A DNA stretch of 64,000 nucleotides from Rikenella microfusus (GTDB lineage: Bacteria; Bacteroidota; Bacteroidia; Bacteroidales; Tenuifilaceae), in contig DYKO01000012.1 in the NCBI GenBank assembly GCA_020722565.1, positions 28,739-92,738 of the forward strand, written 5' to 3'. The first letter of the stretch is position 1; each line of letters opens with the position of its first letter. Below are positions 27,174 to 50,649 of this stretch, piece after piece. The notes beneath the pieces were generated by a model, which searched no databases, was not told the origin of the DNA, and worked only from the letters and a program-made list of their open reading frames with translations. Both the position numbers and the translations under genes were made by a program.

Positions 27174-28862
27174 ATGGAAGCAATAAAACTACTGATATTT
27201 TTTACAGCGCTTCCACTGATATTGCTATCACAGGATAGGATAACCGGTCTAAATTTTGCCACCCGTTCGGAGGTAATTGCCCGAAATGGTATGGCTTGTA
27301 CAAGTCAGCCACTGGCAACACAGGTGGCTATTGATATACTCAAACAGGGTGGTTCAGCCGTTGACGCCGCCATAGCAGCCAATGCCATGCTTGGGCTTGT
27401 TGAACTCACCGGTAGCGGTATTGGAGTCGATTTGTTTGCTATTGTATGGGATGCTAAAACCAGAAAACTTTACGGGCTCAATGCCAGCGGACGTTCCCCT
27501 AAAACGCTCACTTTGGAGCATTTTAGAGAAAAAGGTATTAAGCGAATACCTGCATTTGGCCCATTGCCAGTATCGGTGCCGGGCTGTGTTGACGGCTGGT
27601 TTGAGCTGCATAAAAAACTTGGGAAACTTTCAATGAAGCAAATTCTTAGCCCAGCCATTGGTTATGCTCGGGAGGGATGTCCTGTATCGGAACTCATAGC
27701 ATACTACTGGCAGCGCAACGCTGAGCGAATCAAACAGTTCGAGGGTTTTGCAGATGTGTTTATGCCTAATGGTAAAGCACCTGCAAAGGGCGAAATTTTC
27801 CGGAATCCTTTCCTTGCCAACACCTATGATTTAATTGCCACTAAGGGACGCAATGAATTTTATAAGGGATCGATAGCCCGTACTATCGATGAATACATGA
27901 AACGCAATGGAGGTTTCCTATCGTACGACGATATGGCCTCGCATAAGTCCGAATGGGTGGATCCGGTTTCAACAACCTACAGGGGTTATGATATCTGGGA
28001 GCTTCCACGCAACGGTCAGGGTATAGCCACTCTACAAATACTCAACATGATGGAGCTATTCGACGTTAAATCGATGGGATTTGGAAGTGCCGATTACATG
28101 CATCTTTTCATTGAGGCCAAAAAACTGGCATTCGAGGATAGAGCCCGCTACTATGCCGATCCGGCATTTGTTGATATTCCCTATCATCAATTGGTATCCA
28201 AGGAGTATTCCGCTGAGCGGGTTAAACTTATTAATCCTAACCGTGCTGCACGCACCTATGATGCCGGAGATTTAAATGTTGGAAATACCATCTACCTAAC
28301 TGTAGCCGATAAGGAGGGCAACATGGTTTCACTAATCCAGAGTAACTATCGGGGAATGGGGTCTGGAATGACCCCCACGGGGTTAGGTTTTGTTCTTCAG
28401 GATAGGGGTGAACTTTTTAGCTTCGAAGATGGACATCCAAATGTTTACGCACCCAGCAAACGACCATTCCACACCATTATCCCCGGGTTTATTACCAAAG
28501 ATGGCCAGCCATGGGTTAGCTTTGGCGTAATGGGGGGTAGCATGCAGCCCCAAGGGCATACCCAAATCATTGTAAATCTTATCGATTTTGGAATGAATTT
28601 ACAGGAGGCCGGCGATGCACCACGAATCATGCACGAGGGCAGTTCAGAGCCTACCGGTGAAAAAATGACCGATGGCGGAACCGTTTACCTTGAATCGGGT
28701 TTTGACTACCAAGAGATAAGAAAACTATTGGCTAAAGGCCATAGAATAGGCTTCAGCCTCGATGGGTAGGGTGGTTACCAGGCAATTCTGTTCGATTCCC
28801 AAAACAGCGTTTACATCGGCGCATCGGAATCGCGAAAGGATGGGCAAGCCGCAGGGTATTAG
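27174..28862 (+). pseudogene. ggt: Gamma-glutamyltransferase family protein interrupted by in-frame TAG (28767-28769) 30 codons before the expected end
   Basis: 27174..28769 encodes a 531-aa GGT-like protein (QGGSAVDAAIAANAMLGLVE, GNTIYLTVADKEGNMVSLIQSNYRGMGSGMTPTGLGFVLQDRG). In-frame continuation after TAG reads GGYQAILFDSQNSVYIGASESRKDGQAAGY*, the canonical GGT C-terminus. Confidence 0.85.
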
Positions 28863-28863
28863 T

Positions 28864-28893
28864 AAAAAAGAGGGCAAGTGCGCCCTCTTTTTT
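28864..28893. terminator. Rho-independent terminator (bidirectional)
   Basis: AAAAAAGAGGGC-aagtgc-GCCCTCTTTTTT. Confidence 0.8.
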
Positions 28894-28915
28894 ACTAAAA
28901 TATGCATTGTAAAGT

Positions 28916-29116
28916 TTACCTGTGTATAATTGGATCGGGTTTACCATCTGGATCATTAAGAACATAACCATTGGTTTTGGGAGCACCAAGTAGAACAACA
29001 CCGCAGGCATGGGGCGATGCCATTGATGTTCCACTCAGGGTTGCGTACTTTCCGCTCTTATTGGTTGAATCTAAACCCAATATTGTCAAGCATTTAAAAC
29101 TCATTTTTTGGCACAT
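28916..29116 (-). pseudogene. 5'-truncated S8 (subtilisin-like) serine peptidase remnant
   Basis: 66-aa frame contains the S8 catalytic Ser motif SGTSMASPHACGVVLLGAPKTNGYVLNDPDGKPDPIIHR*, but no catalytic Asp/His regions upstream on this strand; a TonB receptor remnant begins at about 29161 on the other strand. Confidence 0.8.
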
Positions 29117-49115: not shown

Positions 49116-49443
49116 GTAGATATAGAAAGATTTCTACAAAGATAACGGATTGCATGCTAACAATAGCGACCAGCAGAGCCCTTTGCAAAAGGCTTTTAGT
49201 AAAAGTTTTTTTGGAGGGAGCGGCCAGATTGCTATCAGTTTCTGCTACCAACAAAACCGACACATCGTCGTTGATATTACATTAGAAAAATCTTCTGAAA
49301 CAACAACCTAAACGGATTGAATCTTATTAATATTTATTTAAAAAAAAGAATTTATTCTTGTTAAAAAATTGTTAAACCATTTTTAATTTTTAATTTCATT
49401 TACTATATTTAAGGTGTTAAAACAATTTAAAAACCATTTAATT

Positions 49444-49704
49444 ATGACTAAAATAATCACATTTAATGAGCTCAGGAGGGTTAAGGATAACCTTCCTGAT
49501 GGTAGCATGCAGATAATTGCGGACAGGTTGAACATGAATGTTGAAGCTGTCCGCAATTATTTTGGCGGAACCAACTACAAAGAGGGAGGAACTGTAGGTT
49601 TTCATCTGGAACCGGGGCCCGATGGTGGAATTGTTACACTGGACGACACAACAATACTTGATATGGCATATGAAATCATCGCCAAAACAAAAGAGATTGC
49701 CTAA
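49444..49704 (+). CDS. Small HTH-like DNA-binding protein
   Basis: ORF track 49414..49704; likely start MTKIITFNELRRVKDNLPDGSMQIIADRLNMNVEAVRNYFGG at 49444; IADRLNMNVEAVRNYF resembles a helix-turn-helix. Confidence 0.75.
   Translation: MTKIITFNELRRVKDNLPDGSMQIIADRLNMNVEAVRNYFGGTNYKEGGTVGFHLEPGPDGGIVTLDDTTILDMAYEIIAKTKEIA
49513..49560 (+). repeat. Perfect 14-bp inverted repeat within the HTH-like CDS
   Basis: ATAATTGCGGACAG (49513-49526) / CTGTCCGCAATTAT (49547-49560), 20-nt spacer. Confidence 0.95.
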
Positions 49705-49725
49705 ACAATAATCGATTACTTATCG

Positions 49726-49753
49726 TAAAAGCAGGAAATTATTCCTGCTTTTT
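49726..49753 (+). terminator. Rho-independent terminator of the HTH-like gene
   Basis: AAAAGCAGGAA-atta-TTCCTGCTTTTTT. Confidence 0.8.
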
Positions 49754-49785
49754 TATTTATTTTGTAAAAATTTATTCCATTAGAT

Positions 49786-50649
49786 ATGGAAACGCTACTA
49801 AATACTATTCATAAAATTGAGGATAAGCATCTTTACCTGCTTTATTCATCGCTAAATACAATATTTAAGGATACACGGCTTCCCTCACACGATCTTCAGC
49901 ACCATATTAGGGTATGGCTACACTGCCGAGGACTTATGATTGAGCTGCATAAAGCAGGACTAAGTATTGATGAAACACTTATTGAAAAGGCTCTGATAGC
50001 ATGCTTCTTCCACGATACTGGACTAACCGTTACCCTGGACGAGCAACATGGTTACAGTAGCGCACAATTCTGTAAGAACTACCTTGAAAACCACCTATCA
50101 ATCCTAACCAATGCCGAAAAAAACGAAATAATTACTGCCGTTGAGCTTCACGATGACAAATCGGTGAAAGCTAAGCCGGTAACCAAACCCGATGAAATGC
50201 TGCAGTTAAATCTTCTGGTATCAACCGCCGATGACCTAGATGCACTGGGCTTTATTGGCGTTTTTAGATACATTGAAATATACCTTAAAAGAGGAATAGA
50301 CTTAAAAGAGCTTCCCCGCAAGGTAACCCATAACCTACGTAACCGATTTACCAGTTTTACCAATGCCTATTCATCGCTACATCGGTATGCCGACAGGCAA
50401 CGCTTACGCTATCATGAAACCATCGACTTTTTTACACGATTGGAGGCTGATATTTCAGAAAACAGTAACTCAACGGATAGTCCACTTCATGTAACTAAAA
50501 TCCTAAAACAGAAATTAGTTGTTGAAAGTAGTAGCATTGATGAAACCATAACTTACGCTCTCAAAACCCAAACCGCACCCTACCCTTCATCATTTTTTAC
50601 AAAACTTCGCAGCGAACTTGAAGTTACCACAGCTATTCCCATTTACTAA
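49786..50649 (+). CDS. HD-domain protein (putative phosphohydrolase)
   Basis: 287 aa; H...RVWLHCRGLM, ACFFHDTGLT (HD), EIITAVELHDDKS, STADDLDALGFIGVFRY. Confidence 0.85.
   Translation: METLLNTIHKIEDKHLYLLYSSLNTIFKDTRLPSHDLQHHIRVWLHCRGLMIELHKAGLSIDETLIEKALIACFFHDTGLTVTLDEQHGYSSAQFCKNYLENHLSILTNAEKNEIITAVELHDDKSVKAKPVTKPDEMLQLNLLVSTADDLDALGFIGVFRYIEIYLKRGIDLKELPRKVTHNLRNRFTSFTNAYSSLHRYADRQRLRYHETIDFFTRLEADISENSNSTDSPLHVTKILKQKLVVESSSIDETITYALKTQTAPYPSSFFTKLRSELEVTTAIPIY

Follow-up and report, generated by a model that had tools for sequence, protein, structure and literature searches.

Structured elements in mRNA, coding regions included, are of a known kind, and so is constraint on silent sites near start codons. 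In E. coli, a stem-loop in the mRNA of ribosomal protein L31 (rpmE) is bound by L31 (L31p), forming an autogenous ribosomal-protein leader (PMC9825181). The locus described here resembles that leader: the gene is short, its product is a small protein of nucleic-acid-binding-like character, and conserved stem-loops lie near the start of the gene's own mRNA. It differs in that the L31 element lies in the 5′ UTR and its feedback has been shown, whereas here the hairpins lie wholly in the coding sequence, the protein is not ribosomal and its binding is putative. On a genome-wide scale, mRNA structure slows silent-site evolution at structure-sensitive sites, most strongly near the start codon, as a weak trend (PMC4021280). 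The present gene shares the slower silent-site evolution near the start codon, but it is a single gene with two strong, discrete hairpins and a sharp boundary at codon 41. Structured-RNA candidates in Bacteroidota have been obtained by comparative genomics (PMC2864571); they are likewise conserved RNA structures of this phylum found by comparison, but the present element lies inside an ORF and has no Rfam family at threshold. An Rfam scan of positions 49200–49800 gave best matches that were all far below the gathering scores, and a limited search of the open-access literature found no paper on the gene.

The window analysed is a stretch of 64,000 nucleotides from Rikenella microfusus, and positions are counted from its first letter. 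Besides the protein, the first 120 nt of the gene probably encode a further message with a regulatory role, because relatives have kept the hairpins through their choice of silent sites. One stretch of DNA in a little-studied family would then be used under two codes, for an HTH-like protein and for an RNA element of two hairpins.

The gene, its transcript and the encoded protein

The gene occupies 49444–49704 on the forward strand (codons 49444–49701, followed by the stop), is present as a single copy in the genome and encodes a protein of 86 residues. Orthologues were found in 25 of the 27 genomes examined from the family and at 64 GTDB loci (Bacteroidales and neighbours); the coding sequence of L013 (Perlabentimonas gracilis) is identical to that of the family locus L083, which makes Tenuifilaceae the probable family. 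The protein of the window has no match in Pfam or NCBIfam, and its relatives give weak matches to several HTH families. The AlphaFold2 model (pLDDT 74, pTM 0.59) contains, in order, a strand, helices 7–16, 21–29 and 33–40, a low-confidence stretch, a second strand and a C-terminal helix. We describe the protein as HTH-like on the strength of this predicted helix spacing and the weak HTH matches among its relatives; it is widespread in the family and has no name. A fold search with the model returned nothing confident (best E 1.2). A PDB profile search matched entry 8vd6 in five repeats of one chain, under the label CAP REPEAT; the entry is apparently a designed repeat protein, and was set aside as a clue because it tells no function.

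Upstream, a candidate −7 promoter element (TATATTTA, 49404–49411, forward strand) is kept in place in genera g1, g5, g6 and g9, with one base different in L072, and the rest of the upstream region cannot be aligned. The element is similar to the Bacteroides −7 consensus TAnnTTTG (PMC7366714), and places the probable transcript start about 25–30 nt 5′ of the ATG. Downstream, a terminator scan called an intrinsic terminator at 49727–49752 on the forward strand, with an 11-bp stem and a T-rich tail, in agreement with the original prediction that the gene has a terminator of its own. From the candidate start to this terminator, the gene would form a short single transcription unit.

Two stem-loops in the early coding region

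A perfect pair of 14-bp arms with a 20-nt spacer had been proposed inside the coding sequence, and is present as ATAATTGCGGACAG (49513–49526) and CTGTCCGCAATTAT (49547–49560). These arms are enclosed in a longer dyad, H2, with 23-nt arms at 49513–49535 (of which the first 14 nt are the perfect arm) and 49538–49560 on the forward strand, complementary at 21 of 23 positions and separated by 2 nt. The dyad of 48 bp covers codons 24–39 of the 86, and its arms fall in the predicted helices 21–29 and 33–40, which fits the earlier suggestion that they encode the two helices of the HTH. The RNA of 49500–49573 folds at −34.9 kcal/mol, with z = −7.8 against dinucleotide shuffles. Of 46,999 57-nt coding segments sampled from this genome (298 kb), that of H2 ranks first in stability, at −30.0 kcal/mol and with a synonymous z of −7.1; the synonymous z of 600 random coding segments had a standard deviation of 1.08 and a minimum of −3.98.

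Synonymous sequences for the same protein were drawn with the codon usage of the genome, taken from 295 kb of its coding DNA. None of 20,000 draws gave 14-bp perfect arms, and the paired positions over 23 averaged 12.9 (s.d. 1.65), against 21 observed. Perfect inverted repeats in ORFs (298 kb coding, loops of 3–45 nt) numbered two at a length of at least 12 bp and two at a length of at least 14 bp, where shuffling of synonymous codons gave expectations of 0.6 and 0.05, respectively. Stretches totalling 345 kb of this genome, 800 kb of G012 and 800 kb of G018 supplied the background statistics. By the synonymous draws, the ranking of coding segments and the inverted-repeat counts, H2 is well beyond chance even with the protein sequence given, and the earlier estimate that it was unlikely to arise by chance is borne out. 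The residue pairs I/N, A/R, D/V, L/E and N/V across the arms have complementary middle bases, so the HTH motif accounts for a long stem being possible, and codon choice accounts for its near-perfect pairing. Codon bias for high expression was rejected as the sole cause, because the stem holds the rare codons GCG (6.8% of Ala codons) and GTC (5.0% of Val codons).

The second inverted repeat counted within an ORF lies at 28859–28898 and is a perfect 17-bp repeat with a 6-nt loop and A/T tracts on both sides. It is likely to be an intergenic, bidirectional intrinsic terminator, and the minus-strand ORF drawn over it (28753–29010) is probably spurious. Among the ranked coding segments, L103:825–882 had the second most extreme synonymous z (−6.05, at −26.7 kcal/mol); it falls within a gene whose product resembles a methyl-accepting chemotaxis protein.

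The original prediction missed a further hairpin, H1, which lies just upstream of H2 in codons 10–19, is more widespread, carries compensatory changes and appears to be the older of the two. It has the form CAGGAGGGTT-AAGGAT-AACCTTCCTG, with the 5′ arm at 49473–49482 (codons 10–13) and the 3′ arm at 49489–49498 (codons 16–19), both on the forward strand; folding adds one pair at each end, for 12 bp and −17.7 kcal/mol. In a fold of the 339-nt transcript region 49417–49755, H1, H2 and the terminator stem all appear. From 16 family sequences RNAalifold predicted H1 unprompted, with compensatory pairs; H2 was not recovered from these sequences, as expected if it is clade-specific. The compensatory changes in H1 are C–G/A–U/U–A at the base of the stem and G–C/A–U inside it. 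H1 retains one G·U pair in every hairpin-bearing genome but L079, in which this pair is A–U. A Shine–Dalgarno-like hexamer, AGGAGG (49474–49479), is buried in H1, and its two AGG codons are conserved in g1, g5, g6 and g9; Bacteroidota seldom use sites of this kind.

Silent-site constraint and its distribution among relatives

The genera were labelled g1 (that of this genome) to g9. A zone of strong synonymous constraint extends over 49453–49563 on the forward strand (codons 4–40), holds both hairpins and ends in a sharp drop at codon 41; within it, g1, g5 and g6 use largely the same synonymous codons. Synonymous identity in the zone is 0.77 between this genome and G012 (g5) and 0.81 between G018 and G012, compared with means of 0.45 and 0.47 for the same zone in 20 and 44 other orthologue pairs, none of which (0 of 64) is as high, and one of 77 other genes equals the identity of the zone in some 37-codon stretch along its length. 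From codon 41 onward, the values for the HTH-like gene are 0.46 and 0.44, which is typical of the genome, and the 3′ half is saturated. Of the 20 paired third positions in the stems, including those of the H2 3′ arm, 15 are conserved across g1, g5 and g6, compared with 4 of the 44 third positions in codons 42–86 (p = 2 × 10−7); within g1 alone the counts are 20 of 20 and 8 of 44. Unpaired silent sites in codons 4–41 are also conserved above the level of the 3′ half (9 of 17), and part of the constraint over these codons is therefore not due to pairing; inside the zone, the comparison of stem with unpaired sites gives p = 0.15 for g1, g5 and g6 together and 0.04 for g1.

Five stem sites vary, and at two of them the partner compensates: in L075, CTT is matched by A at codon 19, and in L072 the sole silent change from AAT to AAC at H2 codon 32 within g1, g5 and g6 pairs with G at codon 31. 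Codon 31, in the H2 loop, takes six forms (ATG, GTT, GTC, ATC, ATT and GTA), while the flanking stem codons hardly vary. Counting of structure pairs gave modest covariation only, a value that protein constraint inflates. There is little true covariation in H2, and the case for it is made by stability and conservation.

Each orthologue was folded and compared with its own synonymous null. For H2, the mean z was −5.8 in g1, −5.0 in g5 and −4.3 in g6, with values of −4 to −7 in these genera; it was about 0 in g9, −0.5 in g3 and −1.2 in g2, and −3.1 in one g4 genome (L081). Selection on H2 across the whole order was rejected, as the mean z in 48 wider orthologues was 0.04. For H1, the mean z was −4.8 in g1, −3.7 in g5, −3.1 in g9 and −4.5 in g8; in g3 it was −2.3, with most of the genus beating the null, and in g6 a borderline −1.9. 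Values for g4 and g2 were about 0 and −0.7, and the wider orthologues averaged −0.3. In Rikenellaceae/Alistipes loci (L038, L044, L045, L037 and others) the H1 region scored mostly about −1 to −3, perhaps reflecting a weakly formed or earlier version of H1, these samples not being independent of one another. Selection on the structure of H1 and H2 at silent sites is well supported. The proposal that selection acts on the DNA or RNA as well as on the protein thus stands for g1, g5 and g6, where silent stem sites are conserved and the synonymous nulls are beaten, but for H2 it does not extend to g9, where the arms of L074 are broken, a case of the kind named in advance as a refutation.

H2 is dispensable, being missing in g9, g3, g2, g7, g8 and one g4 genome with a protein that is much alike. 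It is a lineage-specific element and no general feature of the protein family, since L074 (g9) encodes MQHIADRLNMNVETVRNYF with broken arms. A RecA tree places g5 beside g9 as its sister, at 100% support; g1 and g6 lie elsewhere in the tree, and the deeper branches are weakly supported. On the simplest reading of this tree, H2 would be ancestral to g1, g5, g6 and g9 and would have been lost in g9. RNA elements in coding regions can, on this evidence, arise and vanish within one family.

Possible roles of the hairpins

We think it fairly probable that a cis-acting RNA structure in the early coding region is under selection, with autogenous feedback as the leading guess for its action. Codons 4–40 would serve two uses, specifying the protein and forming an RNA element in which stem-loop H1 (codons 10–19) is followed by stem-loop H2 (codons 24–39), both kept by selection on synonymous sites. 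The hairpins presumably form in the cell and act as RNA, in cis and post-transcriptionally, on their own short mRNA; the encoded protein or another factor might bind them and lower the translation or the stability of the message. This last step is a guess, favoured because a small, nucleic-acid-binding-like protein would here be encoded by a short transcription unit of its own, a situation known from ribosomal-protein leaders. Of the features of a cis-acting structured RNA, the locus shows stability beyond that given by protein and codon usage, as well as compensatory pairs in H1 and conserved paired sites in H2 across g1, g5 and g6. In hairpin-bearing genomes, stem substitutions yield G·U more often than A·C, in few independent events; together with the G·U pair of H1, this leans weakly towards sense RNA over both DNA and antisense RNA, because such pairs form in sense RNA only.

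The high stability of H2, with a G+C core (GCGGACAG/CUGUCCGC) followed by AAUUAUUUU, together with the invariance of the TAT and TTT codons in g1, g5 and g6, would suit an attenuator or conditional terminator that stops or pauses transcription if ribosomes fall behind and yields a 5′ RNA of about 150 nt. We regard this as improbable: the A/U tract pairs inside the stem, leaving just UUU after the full hairpin, and the arrangement of an intrinsic terminator, with a T run directly after the stem, is not found in H2, where just TTT follows the complete stem. The scan that called 49727–49752 did not call H2, and attenuation leaves H1 unexplained, an older hairpin that lacks a U tract. Small HTH proteins commonly autoregulate, and an HTH-like product with two dyads in its own gene invites the reading that this protein, or another, binds the palindromes as DNA and represses the gene from inside its coding sequence. 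It is a doubtful reading. The two dyads have no sequence or recognition motif in common, the H2 dyad occurs once in the genome and H1-like sites elsewhere carry 2–3 mismatches; with neither dyad recurring convincingly, one protein reading both as operators is disfavoured; moreover, the conserved G·U of H1, kept in all hairpin-bearing genomes but one, is a mismatch in DNA, and H2 spans 48 bp. Among the mechanisms first put forward, a hairpin acting at the mRNA level is accordingly favoured and a DNA operator has become less likely.

The transcript would be short, would carry a single gene and would be stably structured at its 5′ end, and a 5′ fragment processed from it could also act in trans as a small RNA. 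There is no Rfam match and no conspicuous unpaired seed that is conserved, and a dual-function RNA of this kind seems very unlikely. The reading in which there is no selection on structure, the HTH motif favouring complementary codons and the shared codons being inherited or recombined between genera, can point to the middle-base complementarity built into the motif, to the null H2 z-scores in relatives outside g1, g5 and g6 and to an old exchange of gene fragments, which is formally possible. It is nevertheless strongly disfavoured and highly improbable: the motif alone is ruled out by the codon-usage null, which gave the perfect arms in none of 20,000 draws, the 3′ half shows the saturation typical of the genome, variation occurs in the loop and at unpaired positions but not in the stems, and g5 matches g1 and g6 in spite of being the sister of g9.

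Under the preferred reading of a cis-acting RNA element, the locus would offer a compact system for autogenous control in Bacteroidota, with g9, which has the same protein without H2, as a natural control. A more specific version, rather unlikely as it stands, is that the HTH protein regulates itself by binding the two RNA hairpins within its gene; as the codons of the HTH helices make up one of these, a DNA-reading motif would encode its own RNA operator.

An overlapping antisense gene (minus-strand ORF 49438–49605) was rejected, as the same-phase frame is interrupted by stops in every g5 sequence. The stem of H2 is in codon register, and the antisense frame consequently reads a near copy of the peptide (IIADSFNIHVQPVRNY compared with IIADRLNMNVEAVRNY).
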